Shown: positions 53,270-64,000 of the stretch, one piece after another
Numbering within the stretch: position 1 is the stretch's first letter
Layout of the letters: each line of letters starts with the position of its first letter
Origin: a virus
Virus record (IMG/VR): IMGVR_UViG_3300042691_041259
Location: 124,001-188,000 of that record
Direction: 5' to 3' (one strand)
DNA: 64,000 bases
The notes under the pieces: generated by a model
What the model saw: only the letters and a program-made list of their open reading frames with translations
The model's database searches: none
What the model was told of the DNA's origin: nothing
Made by a program: the position numbers and the translations under genes

Positions 53270-54403
53270 TTAACAATTTGGGTAGCGTCGAACTAACCAA
53301 TCAAGGTTTTCTCTTTCATCATAGTCAGAGTACCACCCACCGTTCTTTTTCATTCGAATGAGGTTATCAAAGTACTCCTCGTACATTCTTGCAACTACCT
53401 CGAGAGAGAAGTTATTCATGGCCCATTCACGGCAAGCTTTCGGACTGATTTTATCAATGTTTCGAGTGGCCCAAACAAACTGCTCCATAGTCCTGCATCG
53501 ATAGCCAGTGATTCCGTGCAAATTGTTTTCTGCAAAGCACGCCCAATCTGATGTAATTACTGGAGTTCCCGAGAAGAGAGCCTCGATCATTACACCGCCA
53601 AAAGGTTCAGCATAATATGATGGAACATATAAGCCTTTTGCGCCGGCCAACAGTGCTTTTCTCTTTTCAACATCGGCGTAACCTACAAATTCAACATTGT
53701 CAGGTGGCGTTCCAAAAGTTTTTTCATAATCGCCCTGCCCCGCCACTTTCAGTTTTACGCCAGCTTTCTTTGCAGCAGTCACGGCTACTTGTATTCCTTT
53801 GGTTTCCACAATTCTGCCTAAATAGAGGAAGTAGTCTTCCTTTTCTTCGCGGTACTCAAAATCTGTAGGATCGAAATAGTTCGGAATCACCGCGTCAGTC
53901 CAAGAAGGATTCCCCCATTTCATTTTTTCGTAAGCGATATGAAGGACGCTGTATGATTCAAAGATACGATAAGGAGCAAAAAGCCCTGTGTGATAACCAA
54001 TTCCAGGTTCTACTGGAATGAGGTCAGAATGCGCCTTTGAGATTTCTTCATGCCCAAATCCCCAAAAGCATAGGAGAAGATCGCCAGGCTGTTTATGCTT
54101 GGCGATCTCCGCTATGGCATTTTTGTTGAACGTCTGTTGAGCTTTGTCATTAATGTTATGAACAAACTGGTTTCGTTTCCAGTCATATTCACCATAGGTT
54201 TCAATTAAGATTTGATCATTAGTCACCGGTATGAGAACGTCGCATTCAGCGTCGGAGCGGTCATGGGCATACAGGTAGATCGTGTGCCCACGCTCTTTCA
54301 TCATCTTACAGAATTTTACAACCTTTTGCGTATACGCGCAAGAGAGATATTCTTTAGATGTTACCGTGTGTGGTAGAGCAAGTACGTGAAACCTATGTTT
54401 CAT
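53270..54403 (-). CDS. GT4-type glycosyltransferase (377 aa)
   Basis: A 377-residue GT-B glycosyltransferase of the GT4 type. The hallmark EPFGGVMIEALFSGTPVI (residues about 267-284) with the E-x7-E sugar-nucleotide motif is present, as is the preceding YLGRIVETKGIQVAV and the VAGQGDYE turn. It transfers a sugar from a nucleotide donor to an unknown acceptor. Together with the other glycosyltransferases in the window it may decorate DNA or virion proteins, or modify host surface glycans. The start overlaps the upstream stop as TAATG. It ends at a terminator. Confidence 0.88.
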   Translation of the reverse strand: MKHRFHVLALPHTVTSKEYLSCAYTQKVVKFCKMMKERGHTIYLYAHDRSDAECDVLIPVTNDQILIETYGEYDWKRNQFVHNINDKAQQTFNKNAIAEIAKHKQPGDLLLCFWGFGHEEISKAHSDLIPVEPGIGYHTGLFAPYRIFESYSVLHIAYEKMKWGNPSWTDAVIPNYFDPTDFEYREEKEDYFLYLGRIVETKGIQVAVTAAKKAGVKLKVAGQGDYEKTFGTPPDNVEFVGYADVEKRKALLAGAKGLYVPSYYAEPFGGVMIEALFSGTPVITSDWACFAENNLHGITGYRCRTMEQFVWATRNIDKISPKACREWAMNNFSLEVVARMYEEYFDNLIRMKKNGGWYSDYDERENLDWLVRRYPNC

Positions 54404-57300: not shown

Positions 57301-58203
57301 TTATTGAATTAAAAAAATTGTTTGTAATGCATTTTTGCATGCCTGCTGGGTTATTTCCCCGCTCTTAACTATTATATCCATGGTTTCTTTAAACTTCTGT
57401 GCATCCGGAGTATATTCCAAACCATCAGGGTGTATAATGAAAAGCGGTTCTTTCATATAGAAGAAGTGCGGCGGATTTTCTTCGTGATTTTCGGAAAGGA
57501 TTTTCTCGGCAAGATCAAAATGACGTTCATAGTAGTGAATGTTATCTGCGCAATGATAGTACTTTCCAAGTTGTAGATCTGGATACGTTTTACGCAAATT
57601 ATGCCACATTGTTTGCATTACCACTGCAAAGAACGGAACATCATAAGTAAAGCCATAAAACAAATCGTTAGAGCGCATTTGAACTTTCATATTCAGCTCG
57701 CCATTTCGGATCCAGAAGTTGAGGTACACGGTACAGACAAAATCTTTATTGCCTTCATACTGAAAGTCGGGATGACTAATAAAGGAAATTGCCTGGCGAC
57801 TGTTAATGTCTTTTACCAAGGATTCATATGCCCAAATCATTTGGTTTCCAAAGAGGCGGCTGCCATAGTTGGAATTGACGGTACCATCAGAATTCTGTAA
57901 GCCTTTCCAAAAGTTGGAAAAGTTATCAATGTAGTCCGTGTGACGCTCGCATGTCATATACCAGGCAAGTTCGCCTGCAAAGTATTTCCAATTAAACTCG
58001 CGATTTTGAAAATCCACAAGAGGAAACGTTGGACTGATTGTAAGCGTTTCCAGAAAAAGCTCACGGACTTTTTGTCCTCGAGGAGCTGATTCCATTCCTT
58101 CGGTTTTACATTTATGGAGAGTTTCTGCGAAAACGTCAGAAGCCGATGAAACCCCGGATTTCTTGAAGTATTTCGTCAAAATCTCTGTATTGGTCTTGAT
58201 CAT
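57301..58203 (-). CDS. Thymidylate-synthase-family enzyme, predicted dCMP hydroxymethylase (300 aa)
   Basis: A 300-residue enzyme of the thymidylate synthase fold. Visible family elements: FPLVDFQNREFNWKYFAGEL (59-78), catalytic Cys in DFVCTVYLNF (C157), the phosphate-site RSND (177-180), and ADNIHYYERH (219-228). At the position where thymidylate synthases have Asn (the G-x-P-F-N-I phrase), this protein has GFTYDVPF with D188. In T4 dCMP hydroxymethylase the same Asn is replaced by Asp, which changes pyrimidine recognition from dUMP to dCMP. So it likely makes 5-hydroxymethyl-dCMP or methyl-dCMP. It overlaps the dNMP kinase gene by 68 bases, which fits a linked pathway. Substrate is predicted, not shown. 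Confidence 0.85.
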   Translation of the reverse strand: MIKTNTEILTKYFKKSGVSSASDVFAETLHKCKTEGMESAPRGQKVRELFLETLTISPTFPLVDFQNREFNWKYFAGELAWYMTCERHTDYIDNFSNFWKGLQNSDGTVNSNYGSRLFGNQMIWAYESLVKDINSRQAISFISHPDFQYEGNKDFVCTVYLNFWIRNGELNMKVQMRSNDLFYGFTYDVPFFAVVMQTMWHNLRKTYPDLQLGKYYHCADNIHYYERHFDLAEKILSENHEENPPHFFYMKEPLFIIHPDGLEYTPDAQKFKETMDIIVKSGEITQQACKNALQTIFLIQ

Positions 58204-58693
58204 TTACTTTAATTGTGATTTTGTTGATGATTTTACTATTGTCTACAGCACTTTGAAAGGCTTCAATTTCTTCAACTTTCTTTTCAACCTTGTCAGAATA
58301 TGACAGCCCATCGTCTTTCTTTACAATAAACTCTGCATCCGCAGTTAAGTGTATGAGGTAGACTTCTCTATCTTTATCCAGCGAATAACTCCGTTCCAAT
58401 TGAGGAACCCAAGAGTCGGGATTGCTGTCACGATAGATTTTACCGTACACCAGCTCACCTAAGTGAGCGCGGTTCCAAAACAATACGTGATCTGAAAAAT
58501 TGGCTCGAAGAAATATGAAATGAGCAAATTCATTATGAAATGTACTGATTTGCCACTTGGTCTTTTCGTCATTGGTAGTTCCATGTGGAAAAGACCAGTG
58601 CCTAATGCTGTAATTTCTTAAGCCTTCTGAAAGTTTTTGAATGTAGCTGTCTTTTCCACAGCGATCCATTCCTTCAAAAATGATTAACTTCAT
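58136..58693 (-). CDS. Deoxynucleoside monophosphate kinase (thymidylate-kinase-like)
   Basis: A 185-residue P-loop kinase with the start FEGMDRCGKDSYI (residues 6-18), the Walker A form used by thymidylate and dNMP kinases. A basic and acidic lid region follows around EVYLIHLTADAEFI. T4 gp1 is a dNMP kinase that phosphorylates hydroxymethyl-dCMP, and the overlap with the TS-family gene suggests the same step. The start is ATG at 58693 behind a good early-type promoter. Confidence 0.85.
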   Translation of the reverse strand: MKLIIFEGMDRCGKDSYIQKLSEGLRNYSIRHWSFPHGTTNDEKTKWQISTFHNEFAHFIFLRANFSDHVLFWNRAHLGELVYGKIYRDSNPDSWVPQLERSYSLDKDREVYLIHLTADAEFIVKKDDGLSYSDKVEKKVEEIEAFQSAVDNSKIINKITIKVNDQDQYRDFDEILQEIRGFIGF

Positions 58694-58710
58694 TAGTTGT
58701 TATTTGTTGA

Positions 58711-58738
58711 TTATATTCAATCAGCTGAAAAAGGTTTT
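58711..58738 (-). promoter_or_regulatory. Early/middle-type promoter before dNMP kinase
   Basis: Minus-strand AAAAC (58734-58738), 15 bases, GAATATAA (58711-58718), then TCAACAAATAA as at the 51559 promoter. It would start the kinase and dCMP hydroxymethylase unit. Confidence 0.65.
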
Positions 58739-59415
58739 AACAAAAAGGTTGTCACAAAGGGAAAATGATCTGATAGATCTGAGTGAAAGACCTCTTGTCT
58801 TACTGGTTCAAGACGGCCTCTTCCCATGCAGTAATCAATCCTTCCCATGGGATGAGTCTTTCGTGTTCCAATATCCATGAATTCGCGCATAAGTATTTCC
58901 GCCTCAGAAGAGGTGTCAAACACATTGAGATCACCACCAATGATTGCGTTATCTGGAAGTTCCATTTCATTCAAAGAGTTCCAGGCAGTATCTACGTGTT
59001 TTGATCCCGCGTGACCTTCATAAGGCATATGTATATTGAACACTGATATTAAATTGGTATCCACATCTACTAATGACTCTTGTACATAGCATTTTTCAGA
59101 AAAAACATCAGACAGCATGTGGTGTCGAGTTTTGAAAATGGGATACCTTGCATAGGTGGCAAGTCCGTAGGAACCTGTCCATCCAAGAGAACACCTTTTA
59201 GTCCAGCTGCCAAACCATTCATGTCCTAGATGCTGCTTAAATTCTGTGTATTGATCGGCATAACCGCTTCTTTTAGCAAGACGATCAACCTCCTGCAGCA
59301 GTATTACATCAGCATTAAATCTTGGAAGCTCCTTGATGAATGCTTGAATATCCACTCCGGCTTTGTCTGTTAGTCCATGGCGAATATTCCAGGACAGTAC
59401 TCGTATTTCAGTCAT
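58717..59415 (-). CDS. Endonuclease/exonuclease/phosphatase (EEP) family protein (232 aa)
   Basis: A 232-residue EEP-superfamily enzyme. Motifs in order: WNIRHG (9-14), LLQEVD (39-44), TYARY-like YGLATYARYP, NIHMPYEG (about 122-129), GGDLNVFD (160-167), RIDYCMG and SDLSDHFPF (about 212-220). The superfamily includes DNase I-like nucleases, AP endonucleases and phosphatases. It lies in the modification island; it may degrade host DNA or act on nucleotides. Its end precedes the kinase promoter. Confidence 0.87.
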   Translation of the reverse strand: MTEIRVLSWNIRHGLTDKAGVDIQAFIKELPRFNADVILLQEVDRLAKRSGYADQYTEFKQHLGHEWFGSWTKRCSLGWTGSYGLATYARYPIFKTRHHMLSDVFSEKCYVQESLVDVDTNLISVFNIHMPYEGHAGSKHVDTAWNSLNEMELPDNAIIGGDLNVFDTSSEAEILMREFMDIGTRKTHPMGRIDYCMGRGRLEPVRQEVFHSDLSDHFPFVTTFLLKPFSAD

Positions 59416-60223
59416 TCAGATATTGTGAGGCCACCCATGAAAAAGAACACCCTTCTGGGTTCTCTTTAATACGCTCTTCCGTCCAGTCCTCAATTTTTTT
59501 ATGGTTGACAGATGTATCATAGAGATGTACACTGTAGGTGATTGGCTTGATTAGTTCCGGCAAAAACTTATTGTAGATCTTCTCGGACTCAGTATAGCGA
59601 TACGGATAGAATGCTTCCCATGGAACTATTTTATAGTGCCCTTGTAGGCTTTCCCGAGCTACAAGAGTGCTGTGCATTTTAACACTATGCTCATCCCAGA
59701 AAGTATCCTTTCCTTTGCTGCGGAACCATGTATATTCTTGGTACCACTCCTGAAGGTACTTGGAATTTGGTGGGCTAATAAGAACTCCGTTTCCGTATTT
59801 CCAGTCTCGGGATCCTAGTTTTCCAACTACAAACTTTTCCTCAGCAAGGAGATCATCAAAAGACTTGATAGTAATAGTATCAAAATCCGAGTAGACTCCG
59901 CCTTGTTCATTAAGTATCTGGATCCGAAATACATCAGAGGCATGTGCTGGATGCACCAATGGGTTTCCAAAAACTTCTGTTGGCGGATCTACTAAGTGAA
60001 CTTTTACGTAGTCTGAGACTCGTTCCCAATACTTACCAGTAGGCTGTTCATTGGTGTAGAAGTTGATTTCGTAATCAGGATTGTGTTTATGAAATGACTT
60101 GGCAGCCAAGAATCTCATCAAATCCCATTCTGCGTTTCGTTTGCTTTTGTCATTGTAAAAGTAGATAAAATGCATCTTCTTATACAATGGGTTAGGTTCT
60201 TTTGTTTCAAAAAGCTTCATCAA
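59408..60223 (-). CDS. GT32-like glycosyltransferase (271 aa)
   Basis: A 271-residue glycosyltransferase of GT-A type. The conserved block ASDVFRIQILNEQGGVYSDF (about 95-114) with D113-F-D115 as the metal-binding DxD is that of the GT32/capsular-sugar family. Its start overlaps the upstream methyltransferase stop by ATGA and its end overlaps the EEP gene by eight bases, so these are one unit. The acceptor is unknown; modified cytosine is an attractive idea given neighbours, but polysaccharide or protein acceptors cannot be excluded. Confidence 0.82.
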   Translation of the reverse strand: MMKLFETKEPNPLYKKMHFIYFYNDKSKRNAEWDLMRFLAAKSFHKHNPDYEINFYTNEQPTGKYWERVSDYVKVHLVDPPTEVFGNPLVHPAHASDVFRIQILNEQGGVYSDFDTITIKSFDDLLAEEKFVVGKLGSRDWKYGNGVLISPPNSKYLQEWYQEYTWFRSKGKDTFWDEHSVKMHSTLVARESLQGHYKIVPWEAFYPYRYTESEKIYNKFLPELIKPITYSVHLYDTSVNHKKIEDWTEERIKENPEGCSFSWVASQYLND

Positions 60224-61425
60224 AAGAGTATTTTAGACGTTTGTTTGATCGGAGTATCTATCCGCTGTGCAATGTTGTCCTGTTTGAAGTAATCAACACC
60301 GCTGTCCTGCAAATGTCCAAAAAGCCATTTTATCACTTGCCCAGTCCAATCAGTTGCGGTATTTACCGGAACGTTTTGCGAGATTTGCTGATACCCTTCA
60401 TGCGCCAAATTAAAGTTGCCGTCTATTCCCATGAGCCACATAAGTTCTTGTACGTTCATCCATCGGTGTTCGGTTGGATGCGTTGACAATTGTAAAGTTC
60501 TGCCTACAACCGCGGTAATATCATTTGCATTAATGTGCGGAGTGCTATCCCATACTCTTTTGCGAGTTGCACGTTCTAATAATGCCAAGTATTTCTTGGA
60601 CTTTGCATCCTCCCTATTTGCAAGGTAATCCATCGCCTTAGTAATTCTTTCCTGTTCACGGAAAATGTAAATAAGAATAGAACGGTTTCCTTCCAAGGCA
60701 GCTTCATGTGGAGTTTTCTTTTCTTCCTGCGTAAGCCACTGGTACAGCGGATCTTCGGTCAGTGGATCCTTCATAAAGTACTTGTCGGTATACGGTCCAG
60801 CTGGTGTTCTTTCAATGTATGTTTCCAGCGGTAGCGTAATTCGGTTGCACCACTCCAGGATCGGAGCAGATTCAGCCTTCCAAAAGAAATAAAAAGATCG
60901 TACCCTGTTTTGCGGAATCCCATGCAGCGCTGTGGAAGTCTTGATCATACTGAAAGAATACCCGTGCTTCTTTCCAATTTCATAAAGTTTGTCCGCAACT
61001 TTCTTTCCTAATGCCGTATAGAGTCCAGGCGCGTTTTCACCCCAGAGAACTTTTGGCTTTACATTCTCGAGAACATACTCGGAAGACTTATACATCCATT
61101 CGTTTTGGATTGCATCCGCTCCACGAGCCTTTTCGCTACCTTCCTTTGTTGATGAATTCAATGCAGATAACCCTGCGCATGGACACAGACTTACTACCAT
61201 GTCTACGCCTTCAATTTCCTCATTAAAGGGACGGTCCCAAGCAATTCCGCTGTCTTCTATCAGGCCGTAAGGAATTTCTGGAAAGTTTGCCCGACAGTGA
61301 CTGTCATTGCTTTGGAAAGCATCGTAAGAGAGTATATACTCTGGATCTTTACCGGTCGCCCGTTTGGCTCCCAGGACCATCCCTCCAATGAGAGGTACTA
61401 TAGCTGCATATTTAAAAGTTTCCAT
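60220..61425 (-). CDS. DNA cytosine-5 methyltransferase-like protein A (401 aa)
   Basis: A 401-residue C5-type methyltransferase. Motif I is PLIGGMVLG (11-19), motif IV is CPCAGLS (81-87) with the catalytic C83, motif VI is GENAPGL (129-135), motif VIII is HGIPQNRVRSFYF (168-180) and motif X is NVPVNTATDW near 353-362. The variable recognition region lies between VIII and X. It is one base from its paralogue and coupled to the GT32-like gene. It would act on cytosine in DNA; recognition sequence is unknown. The catalytic residues look intact, so it is not an obviously dead enzyme. Confidence 0.9.
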   Translation of the reverse strand: METFKYAAIVPLIGGMVLGAKRATGKDPEYILSYDAFQSNDSHCRANFPEIPYGLIEDSGIAWDRPFNEEIEGVDMVVSLCPCAGLSALNSSTKEGSEKARGADAIQNEWMYKSSEYVLENVKPKVLWGENAPGLYTALGKKVADKLYEIGKKHGYSFSMIKTSTALHGIPQNRVRSFYFFWKAESAPILEWCNRITLPLETYIERTPAGPYTDKYFMKDPLTEDPLYQWLTQEEKKTPHEAALEGNRSILIYIFREQERITKAMDYLANREDAKSKKYLALLERATRKRVWDSTPHINANDITAVVGRTLQLSTHPTEHRWMNVQELMWLMGIDGNFNLAHEGYQQISQNVPVNTATDWTGQVIKWLFGHLQDSGVDYFKQDNIAQRIDTPIKQTSKILF

Positions 61426-61426
61426 A

Positions 61427-62668
61427 TCAGAATAGACAAGTTGATTTTTCTTTCACATCAGCTTTTGTAGCTGAGAGATTGCTTTGTCGAAAAAACTTCT
61501 GACCTGAGGACGGAAGTTCTCCTTTAATGTATTTTACTACTTCCAAAGTCCAGTCTCGAGCAGTAGCGGTGGGTACATTTTGTGCAATGTGGTTCCACTG
61601 GTTTTTATCCAGGAGTTCAAAGTCATGAGGTAATCCCATAAGGTGCATATACTCGCGAATTGTAATGAACCGCTTTTCTTCGGGATGCGATCCACAGATC
61701 ATGTTTTTAGAGATCACTGCATTAAAATGGTCGTTTCCTAATCTTGGAGAAACATCCCAAAAGCCTTTTCCTTCGGCAAGTTTCTTTTTAATGTGGTGTA
61801 ATGATCGAGCATCCACAGATCCAGGCAAAACTTTATCTGTGTACTCAATACATTCGTCCAGCCAGCCGTTCTTTACAATATACCAGTTCATGGTACGGCT
61901 GTCCTCGTCGGCCATCATTTCTTTCCAGGAAACTCCTTTAACCTCTTCCACAAACTTAATGATTGGGAGACCTTCAAGTTTCCAGTTGTTAAAAGTTTCC
62001 ATTAGGGAAGCATCCTTTGGAACTTCTGACAGGTATTCACCAAGTTTCTTATGTTCACGATTGTAAGTGTTAAGAACTGGTGCGTACTCACTGTCCCAGA
62101 AGAAGTAGAATGTCCGTGAGCGTTCTTGTGGAATGCCATGGCGGATTGTAGAAGTTTTCATCAAACTCATACTGTAACCATTTTCTTGTGCAATCTCAAA
62201 AAGCTTGTCCACCACACCTTTACCAACTTCTCCATAGAGCCCTGGAGCGTTTTCTCCAAAAAATACTCTGGGTTTAAGAGTTCCCAAAACAAATCGAGCA
62301 GAACGATACATCCACTCATTCTGTGCAGCGTCGGCTCCTCGCGATTTGCTGGTACCACCCTTTGAGTAATTAAGCATTGAAAGACCTGCACACGGACAAG
62401 TGGTACTTACAAAGTCCAATCGATCCTCGGTCACCACCGGCAGGCCGCCGTCCTCATCAAGATTGATGTACGGAACATCTGGCCAATATGCCCTTAGGTG
62501 TTTTTCATTTTCCTGGAACCCATTGTAAGTGTACAAGGCAATTGGCTTATTACCAGTTGCCATTGAGTTTCCAATAGTAAACCCGCCAATGAGTGGCACT
62601 ATTGAAGCATAACGGACTTCTCGTCCATCAATTAGAGCTCCAGCGCTTTCGTTATCGTTTCCTTCCAT
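61427..62668 (-). CDS. DNA cytosine-5 methyltransferase-like protein B (413 aa)
   Basis: A 413-residue paralogue of the adjacent gene. Motif I PLIGGFTIG (25-33), motif IV CPCAGLS (91-97, C93), motif VI GENAPGL (138-144), motif VIII HGIPQERSRTFYF (177-189) and motif X NVPTATARDW. The middle differs strongly between the two copies, which suggests different targets or one being a partner. Its start overlaps the upstream glycosyltransferase-like gene by 37 bases. Confidence 0.9.
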   Translation of the reverse strand: MEGNDNESAGALIDGREVRYASIVPLIGGFTIGNSMATGNKPIALYTYNGFQENEKHLRAYWPDVPYINLDEDGGLPVVTEDRLDFVSTTCPCAGLSMLNYSKGGTSKSRGADAAQNEWMYRSARFVLGTLKPRVFFGENAPGLYGEVGKGVVDKLFEIAQENGYSMSLMKTSTIRHGIPQERSRTFYFFWDSEYAPVLNTYNREHKKLGEYLSEVPKDASLMETFNNWKLEGLPIIKFVEEVKGVSWKEMMADEDSRTMNWYIVKNGWLDECIEYTDKVLPGSVDARSLHHIKKKLAEGKGFWDVSPRLGNDHFNAVISKNMICGSHPEEKRFITIREYMHLMGLPHDFELLDKNQWNHIAQNVPTATARDWTLEVVKYIKGELPSSGQKFFRQSNLSATKADVKEKSTCLF

Positions 62669-64000
62669 TCTTCTAAAAAGTTGTAGTAATTAAAGTGTTC
62701 TTTGAGCTCGTGCATCACTTGAGCTTTTTCTTCAGGATGCGAGTCGTAGTAAGCAATTCTTTCAAGGATTTCTTCGTGGTTATGTACCACAATTTTTTCC
62801 TGAAGCGATGCAGGAATACCCGTGCAGTCTGGATCGTACCGATAGTCAAGTAGAGGGAACACATCCAGAGCAAGGTAAAGAGCTGGCCGCCAGTTAATGA
62901 TATTGTAGCGAGCAATGTTCTTGGCCACGAGCGAGTACTCGTACTGCGCAAGTGTTCGGTTGAGTTCTTGTGTGTCGATATATCCACGGTAGTTTGGGTG
63001 ATTTGAAACCGAATCCCAGAGTTCTGCAATAGTTGAGTCCTCAGTAATTCTTTTTTGCAACCTACCAATGCTTTTGCCTTCTTTTTTTCTTTCTGAAATG
63101 TGTCCATCAACTTTTGGTGGAACATAGAGATCAATGCCTTCGCCTTGAAGATTACGTAGATATGTATTCCAGACATCTTTGCGGGTATTTTTGCTCAAAA
63201 ACACCGTTCCATAGAAGATGAACTTATTCCGCTTTGTCTTGTCAATTTCCCATGGCTTTTCGTATAAAAAGTGTTGCATTTCTGCTACCGGGAAGGCATC
63301 AAAATCTCGGGTTCCGCGGAAGTCCTTTGCTAGCGCAAAGTTTTTGTGAGATGGAGACAATGTATCAAATACTCGGTAAAACGATCCAGGATCCACCACA
63401 AAATAGTATGACTTCTTGAAGTTGCCACTAGTTTTTCCTTCTTCAATATACCAGGCTCCCAAGTTATACAGGAGGTTCTTCATCCAATAGGTAAAGGTGA
63501 GAATCCCTACATGATAGTCGTATCGTTTGCTAATTTTCTTACAATTTTCCAGAATTACTTCACGGATTCGTGGATCATTGCCAATGTAATCGTGGAATTC
63601 ATTGTCGCCATGGATGTTCTCGTGTTGTAGAATTTCTTTTGGCGTTTCGCGTTTTACCCAGTAATCTTTCAGTGGCAGAAAAGCCCAGCGTTCATCAAGC
63701 CACATTACATACTGTGGAAAAACTTTAGGCAATTCTCTTGAAAAGAATTCCTGCACCACATCCCGGTTATGTTCCCAAGAAAGGTTATCTTCCTCGGTCA
63801 TTTCCGCCGCGCGCTTGAACCGCTTTTCTTTAATCTCTTCAAAGTCGTTTTGATTGATTGAATAGATGTTGGAATAACCCATGTCCACCAGTCGAGATGG
63901 ATCATTGTCAACGCCAACCCATACCAGGTTAAATCGTGGAGCAAGTACTTCCTGAATCATGTTGCGGTACCATCCAAGTATATGGTCCTGTTCTTTACAC
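62632..64000 (-). CDS. Glycosyltransferase-like protein, 5' end beyond window
   Basis: An ATG at 63958-63960 opens a 442-residue frame, but the frame stays open for 13 more codons to the window edge, reading KEQDHILGWYRNM, so the true start is outside. The start, LGWYRNM..LAPRFNLVWVGVDND, resembles the first strand and D-x-D region of glycosyltransferases. The C-terminal third, with YIDTQELNRTLAQYEYSL, WRPALYLALDVFPLLDY and EKIVVHNHEEIL, looks like the nucleotide-sugar domain of a GT-B enzyme. The family is not certain. It starts the unit that carries both cytosine methyltransferases. Confidence 0.55.
   Translation of the reverse strand, partial: CKEQDHILGWYRNMIQEVLAPRFNLVWVGVDNDPSRLVDMGYSNIYSINQNDFEEIKEKRFKRAAEMTEEDNLSWEHNRDVVQEFFSRELPKVFPQYVMWLDERWAFLPLKDYWVKRETPKEILQHENIHGDNEFHDYIGNDPRIREVILENCKKISKRYDYHVGILTFTYWMKNLLYNLGAWYIEEGKTSGNFKKSYYFVVDPGSFYRVFDTLSPSHKNFALAKDFRGTRDFDAFPVAEMQHFLYEKPWEIDKTKRNKFIFYGTVFLSKNTRKDVWNTYLRNLQGEGIDLYVPPKVDGHISERKKEGKSIGRLQKRITEDSTIAELWDSVSNHPNYRGYIDTQELNRTLAQYEYSLVAKNIARYNIINWRPALYLALDVFPLLDYRYDPDCTGIPASLQEKIVVHNHEEILERIAYYDSHPEEKAQVMHELKEHFNYYNFLEEWKETITKALEL

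Follow-up and report, generated by a model that had tools for sequence, protein, structure and literature searches.

Twin C5-methyltransferase-like proteins with altered cofactor pockets in a phage island predicted to make and decorate 5-hydroxymethylcytosine

Modified cytosines in phage DNA stop restriction enzymes and influence CRISPR, and the enzymes that install them serve as tools for DNA sequencing and labelling. Why, then, would a phage that seems equipped to build 5-hydroxymethylcytosine (hm5C) into its DNA also carry, in the same gene island, two proteins resembling C5-cytosine methyltransferases (C5-MTases)? The question is raised by a stretch of 64,000 nucleotides (the window; bases 124001-188000 of the 202,505-base IMG/VR virus record IMGVR_UViG_3300042691_041259), where an initial annotation had placed a cytosine hypermodification island of seven genes at 57301-64000. 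In the list of open reading frames, all of these (7/7) are found at that place on the minus strand, one behind the other and either overlapping or separated by short gaps, and the family names given to six of them are supported by Pfam (TS, EEP, GT32-type, DNA_methylase twice and Glyco_trans_1_2). The island does not end there but runs past the window edge, where stretch L003 adds three more genes (window-equivalent 64113-67545). Taken as a whole, the island probably makes and decorates hm5C in the phage's own DNA, with the twin C5-MTase-like proteins, MT1 and MT2, working in the same pathway without the usual use of S-adenosylmethionine (AdoMet). The genes are as follows.

57301-58203, minus strand: thymidylate synthase (TS)-family enzyme, predicted dCMP 5-hydroxymethylase (Pfam TS, 3e-17; Cys157 at 57733-57735, Asp188 at 57640-57642)
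58136-58693, minus strand: P-loop nucleotide kinase, probable 5-hydroxymethyl-dCMP (hm5dCMP) kinase in the role of T4 gp1 (PHROG thymidylate kinase, 2e-10)
58717-59415, minus strand: EEP-family (DNase I-like) phosphoesterase (Pfam Exo_endo_phos, 1.5e-16)
59408-60223, minus strand: GT32-like glycosyltransferase with an SDFDT (DXD) motif (Pfam Gly_transf_sug, 1e-12)
60220-61425, minus strand: MT2, C5-MTase-like with altered cofactor pocket (Pfam DNA_methylase, 3e-17; Cys83 at 61177-61179, Ala84, Glu130, Gln350)
61427-62668, minus strand: MT1, C5-MTase-like with altered cofactor pocket (Pfam DNA_methylase, 1e-15; Cys93 at 62390-62392, Ala94, Glu139, Gln363)
62632 to window-equivalent 64113, minus strand: glycosyltransferase-like edge protein, 493 amino acids when complete (Pfam Glyco_trans_1_2, 2e-6)
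Window-equivalent 64113-65537, minus strand: AGT-family DNA glucosyltransferase, 474 amino acids (beyond the window, L003)
Window-equivalent 65543-67144, minus strand: fusion of a nucleotidyltransferase and an APH-type kinase, 533 amino acids (beyond the window, L003)
Window-equivalent 67141-67545, minus strand: HAD phosphatase, 134 amino acids (beyond the window, L003)

A predicted dCMP hydroxymethylase beside glycosyltransferase genes

The best PDB match of the TS-family protein is the T4 dCMP hydroxymethylase (1b49; 1e-15, phmmer), and its nearest solved relatives are hydroxymethylases. Its Asp188 aligns with T4 Asp179 and the catalytic Cys157 is retained, so that the dCMP-hydroxymethylase signature described in the initial annotation holds. 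In an alignment of 69 rows, this column is Asp in 64 (the window and T4 rows included) and Asn in 5 canonical ones; every non-canonical TS checked has Asp, and Asn occurs in canonical ThyA copies only. The change of Asn177 to Asp is the established switch from dUMP to dCMP, and it distinguishes the TS genes of viral contigs whose cytosine is modified (PMC8670742). The island gene is a second TS copy, a canonical Asn-type ThyA being encoded approximately 171 kb away in the same genome record. T4 likewise has td beside gene 42. From its sequence, the island enzyme is predicted to be a dCMP 5-hydroxymethylase.

The neighbouring genes suggest what may happen to the product. The 474-amino-acid protein beyond the window edge is, by sequence, a member of the T4 DNA alpha-glucosyltransferase (AGT) family, matching T4 AGT over residues 8-384 (phmmer, 3e-12; Pfam AGT, 4.5e-5) and a profile of its phage relatives over nearly its full length (4e-104). 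For the edge protein, the AlphaFold2 (AF2) model (pLDDT 75) has T4 beta-glucosyltransferase (BGT; 1bgt) as its best Foldseek match (E 2.5e-6, TM 0.38/0.53), which is suggestive only of a BGT-like fold. The GT32-like gene is conserved in contigs L012, L013, L019 and L047. Among solved structures, the nucleotidyltransferase is nearest to CTP:phosphocholine cytidylyltransferase, with uridylyl- and thymidylyltransferases of glucose-1-phosphate close behind; relatives of such varied kinds do not allow the donor to be named.

A T4-like route, in which hm5dCMP would be made, phosphorylated, incorporated and glycosylated in DNA, is the best reading of these genes because an Asp-type second TS, a separate ThyA, an AGT-family neighbour and an edge protein with BGT as its nearest fold occur together. 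The cassette very probably swaps cytosine for hydroxymethylcytosine in phage DNA and decorates it with sugars as T4 does, and the hypermodification island proposed initially thereby gains strong sequence-level support, to which the recurring linkage described below adds; its product is a prediction. We regard it as very improbable that the sugar genes instead build a surface or virion polysaccharide, with the TS and methyltransferase-like genes as unrelated neighbours. The HAD protein does resemble a capsule-biosynthesis phosphatase family (TIGR01689, 5e-34, below the cutoff of that model), and nucleotidyltransferase-APH fusions and GT32 proteins are known in such operons. However, the adjoining glycosyltransferase is of the T4 AGT family, the model of the edge protein has T4 BGT as its best match, and the linkage of TS and MT genes recurs over divergent contigs.

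With the hm5C glucosylation system of T4 (gp42, gp1, AGT and BGT), the island shares a dCMP-type TS with Asp and Cys, an adjacent kinase, an AGT-family gene, a separate thymidylate synthase and, tentatively, a BGT-like fold. It differs in adding a nucleotidyltransferase-kinase, a HAD phosphatase, a GT32-like protein, an EEP enzyme and the C5-MTase-like twins, none of which belongs to the T4 scheme, as had been observed for the twins at the outset. Among the loci compared, the EEP gene occurs only in the close relatives L012 and L013. The search for a dCTPase suggested by the initial annotation yielded no candidate in the phage's own genome by PF08761 or MazG, in a record that may be incomplete. 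A PF00692 search found a trimeric-type dUTPase-family gene, which we do not judge to be a dCTPase. The TET-like dioxygenases that were likewise to be sought gave no match to the Pfam TET/JBP models in this genome or in any control genome, which makes the search uninformative. In the MetaGPA 5hmC carbamoyltransferase system, too, an Asp-type TS is found close to a second, decorating enzyme, but that enzyme is a carbamoyltransferase, whereas the decorators here are glycosyltransferases and the C5-MTase-like twins.

Catalytic residues kept, cofactor residues replaced

MT1 and MT2 are 38% identical and fall into separate well-supported clades, each of which also holds copies from L012, L013 and L030, indicating that their duplication is old. 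The AF2 model of MT1 is a confident C5-MTase fold (pLDDT 90), with Foldseek matches to DIM2, M.HaeIII, DNMT1, M.HhaI and CmoX. We compared 106 members of the MT1/MT2 family with 62 Diva-type C5-MTases in M.HhaI numbering, which assumes that the HhaI reference sequence used is correct. A second control set, the Melnitz type, has SPPC-type motifs and Leu at N304 and is itself an atypical C5-MTase group, and the Diva-type set is therefore the sole canonical residue reference.

Essentially all 106 family members retain C81, E119, N120, Q161, R163 and R165, so the twins resemble AdoMet-dependent enzymes of the M.HhaI type in fold and in the catalytic residues of motifs IV, VI and VIII. Their cofactor pocket, on the other hand, is altered. 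In essentially all members, F18 is replaced by V or I, G20 by L and E40 by S or T; the position of Q82 is Ala in 104/106 and that of N304 is Gln in 106/106. Nearly all of the Diva-type enzymes have F or C at 18, G at 20, E at 40, Q at 82 and N at 304. In terms of motifs, the FxGxGG AdoMet site, the motif II acid and the motif X GN have become V/I-x-L-x-GG, S/T and C/A-Q, and the twins thus differ from the M.HhaI type in the Phe and first Gly of motif I, the acid of motif II, the Gln of motif IV and the Gly-Asn of motif X. An independent profile alignment concurs on motifs I, IV, VI, VIII and X; the register of motif II is less certain, and neither alignment has a conserved acid there.

The name C5-methyltransferase, first given to the twins, should be dropped, since the residues that bind AdoMet are replaced throughout the family; on this sequence evidence, ordinary AdoMet methylation by MT1 and MT2 is unlikely. 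Ordinary enzymes with unusual pockets, placed in the island for operon convenience and protecting cytosines that escaped hydroxymethylation, would account for the C5-MTase fold, the retention of every catalytic residue and the mostly retained motif III Asp. Such enzymes would not be expected to replace F18, G20, E40 and N304 in essentially all members when these are almost completely conserved in the 62 Diva-type enzymes; moreover, C5 is already occupied in hm5C, and the linkage to the dCMP hydroxymethylase is strong and absent around control C5-MTases. We consider this explanation improbable.

Known chemistry of C5-MTases offers another direction. In M.HhaI, Q82A and N304A have been engineered to make room for bulky groups in the cofactor channel (PMC10666283) MECHANISTICALLY, and at the first of these two positions the family has Ala by nature. 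Reactions in a C5-MTase site without normal AdoMet chemistry include the joining of thiols to hm5C, the formation of hm5C from cytosine and formaldehyde (PMC7176277) and the removal of the hydroxymethyl group (PMC11347137). A side reaction of this kind would fit the twins better than ordinary methylation, as the covalent catalyst is kept, the cofactor site is changed and an hm5C synthase travels along; we infer C5-MTase-type covalent chemistry on cytosine or hm5C with another donor. One tentative version, which we think possible, is that the MT1/MT2 family are AdoMet-independent conjugating enzymes: the Cys would attack C6 of hm5C (or of its phosphorylated or glycosylated form), loss of the hydroxymethyl oxygen at C5 would leave an exocyclic methylene, and a different nucleophile would then take the position of the oxygen. 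Nature would thus have its own form of the coupling of thiols to hm5C that C5-MTases carry out in vitro, and the hypermodification of thymine in phages would have a counterpart for cytosine. If the family does conjugate groups to hm5C, modified DNA could be reached by an enzymatic route that is new, and the enzymes would lend themselves readily to labelling.

A larger group might alternatively be placed on cytosine through an AdoMet derivative, as by CmoX, the 5-carboxymethylcytosine enzyme of phage S-B43. Like the twins, CmoX is a phage C5-MTase homologue changed at the HhaI N304 position (Arg350 in CmoX); it transfers carboxymethyl from carboxy-AdoMet (PMC12783734), and its product serves as a handle for hypermodification. 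The change of Q82 to Ala and the altered N304 would also suit a larger group (PMC10666283). CmoX keeps its AdoMet contacts and is accompanied by CmoA, however, whereas its adenosine and ribose contacts Phe25 and Glu47 (PMC12783734) have no counterpart in the MT1/MT2 family, which has Gln rather than Arg, CPCAGLS rather than SPPC and a dCMP hydroxymethylase as companion. With no CmoA found in the phage's own genome, the residue table disfavours a CmoX-type route, and we hold it to be quite improbable.

Linkage to the hydroxymethylase and a proposed pathway

Matches to the MT1/MT2 family number at least 554 stretches in IMG/VR, compared with 11 in 84,980 bacterial and archaeal genomes, several of which lie on contigs of metagenome-assembled genomes with the same TS neighbours. 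Cultured phages with the family are Pseudoalteromonas phage XG4 and the cyanophage S-TIM5 group, with a divergent copy in Bacillus phage G. This large phage family is annotated only as DNA methyltransferase, while its catalytic residues are kept and its AdoMet-binding residues replaced; we found no description of it in the open-access literature, and one may exist elsewhere.

The neighbourhoods of family members were compared with loci around other phage C5-MTases, the control being local (flanks of up to 10 kb on each side) rather than whole-genome. The flanks contain a TS homologue at 54/102 family loci and 0/160 control loci (Fisher, 7e-28), and at 39/56 and 0/65, respectively, after dereplication at 85% identity among loci of at least 10 kb (p 1e-18). 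This homologue is on the same strand as the MT gene in 53/54 loci. Among other partners, AGT occurs in the flanks of 26 family loci and 1 control locus, the nucleotidyltransferase/APH family in 25 and 0, and HMUDK-like kinases and inositol-phosphate synthases in 12 and 0 each. In large records (114 kb and up; XG4, S-TIM54 and phage G included), an Asp-type TS was present in 13/13 tested. Since AGT, the kinase with inositol synthase and the sugar-nucleotide partners are scattered across the MT tree, the TS-MT pair appears to be the steady element while the decorators swap. The order of the island genes is preserved in the related contigs L012 and L013, and together with the recurrence of the TS-MT linkage in distant contigs this argues that the arrangement is not due to chance. 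The link to a dCMP hydroxymethylase also gives a clear, testable prediction of the family's substrate.

The same scatter of very different decorators (AGT, the HMUDK-like kinase with inositol-phosphate synthase, and sugar pathways) would be expected of a step common to all, which could be the writing or erasing of hydroxymethyl at the DNA level. MT1 and MT2 might add it to leftover cytosine with a formaldehyde or folate donor, as M.HhaI does with formaldehyde (PMC7176277), or remove it from hm5C at chosen sites, as C5-MTases are able to do (PMC11347137), with the glycosyltransferases using the hm5C that remains. Residual cytosine is plausible given that PF08761 and MazG gave no dCTPase candidate. 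A writer would, however, be redundant where an Asp-type TS is also present, as in all of the large records tested, and we view this explanation with doubt while giving it some weight.

In the pathway that we favour, pieced together from the observed gene content, key residues, fold and linkage, the Asp-type TS enzyme would convert dCMP to hm5dCMP, the overlapping kinase would begin its phosphorylation toward hm5dCTP, and the phage polymerase would build hm5dCTP into DNA. The AGT-like and BGT-like DNA glycosyltransferases, perhaps together with the GT32 protein, would put a sugar on hm5C, for which the activated donor may come from the phage nucleotidyltransferase-kinase and HAD phosphatase. 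The twins would act on cytosine or hm5C in DNA, where the base would be flipped and C6 attacked by the conserved Cys; they would do so without the usual AdoMet, in a pocket that may have been reshaped to take a different donor or a larger group at C5. Their family thus hints, at the level of sequence, at new cytosine chemistry.

Several observations weigh against this pathway. Motif III Asp60 is kept in 94/106 family members, and some adenosyl-type cofactor could still serve the twins. The family loci were not sampled at random: they comprise the 80 that matched the window protein best, with some others added. In two family-bearing fragments (G001 and G004, 76-90 kb), an Asn-type ThyA was the only TS seen. 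The dNMP kinase of the initial annotation has an intact P-loop (GMDRCGKD), overlaps the TS gene by 68 bases and adjoins it in L012, L013, L019, L030, L031, L047 and L067; beyond the PHROG match, its family matches are weak (Pfam PPK2, 1e-5; thymidylate kinase, 0.004), and a PDB profile search gave weak matches only, T4 gp1 not among them, leaving the assignment weak. The BGT-like call is also weak, coming from a moderate model with partial overlap (pLDDT and TM as above). The lack of a dCTPase candidate by PF08761 and MazG means that full replacement of cytosine is not implied. Finally, nucleotidyltransferases (and their APH fusions), HAD proteins of the capsule phosphatase type and GT32 proteins are also found in polysaccharide operons.

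Variant islands and genomic setting

Bacillus phage G has a comparable set within approximately 15 kb (gp301-gp319; L114, L293), comprising the divergent C5-MTase-like gp301, two AGT-type genes (gp306 and gp313), a G1P-thymidylyltransferase, a HAD protein and an Asp-type TS; a dCMP deaminase lies there as well. It differs in having a single, divergent MT-like gene (CPCSGLS, IAQGVP). We found no published DNA-base analysis for this phage in the open-access literature. In Pseudoalteromonas phage XG4, the Asp-type TS match (W01:271-816; L296) contains an in-frame TAA, which is either a sequencing error or a real break.

Two further kinds of island were seen. In L055, L058, L061, L062, L106 and L111 (and L050, L056, L065, L095, L110 and L112), the C5-MTase-like family occurs with a dCMP hydroxymethylase (in most), a 5-hmdU DNA kinase helical domain (PF18723), a myo-inositol-1-phosphate synthase (PF01658) and a GDSL-like protein, and an inositol- or phosphate-bearing cytosine modification is possible in these islands. 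In L033, L036, L038-L041, L044, L045, L049, L051, L052 and L059, family members stand beside NAD-dependent epimerases, nucleotidyltransferases and APH-type kinases, with what by eye are DegT-type aminotransferases in some; this nucleotide-sugar variant has no TS inside the flanks.

A glycosyltransferase of PHROG 3408 (E 3e-125; 53270-54403) is encoded a few kilobases downstream of the TS gene and is kept in L012 and L013; it may or may not belong to the island. Upstream, two minus-strand genes encode, by eye, a 537-amino-acid protein of TROVE/Ro60-type appearance (L003:12829-14442) and a 231-amino-acid protein resembling GH16-type glycosidases (L003:14439-15134).

No match to the window was found among 50,697 phage records at the DNA level or in Rfam. 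A 736-amino-acid window protein is nearest to those of Prevotella Lak, Tenacibaculum, Chryseobacterium and Flavobacterium phages, with matches in Sphingomonas phages too; by sequence the virus resembles large phages of the Bacteroidota type, which suggests a host of that kind. Between 54000 and 64000, promoter-like sites are not above shuffled sequences, and terminator-like hairpins number 16, about twice the mean for shuffles (7.7, standard deviation 2.9), and lie mostly on the strand opposite the genes.

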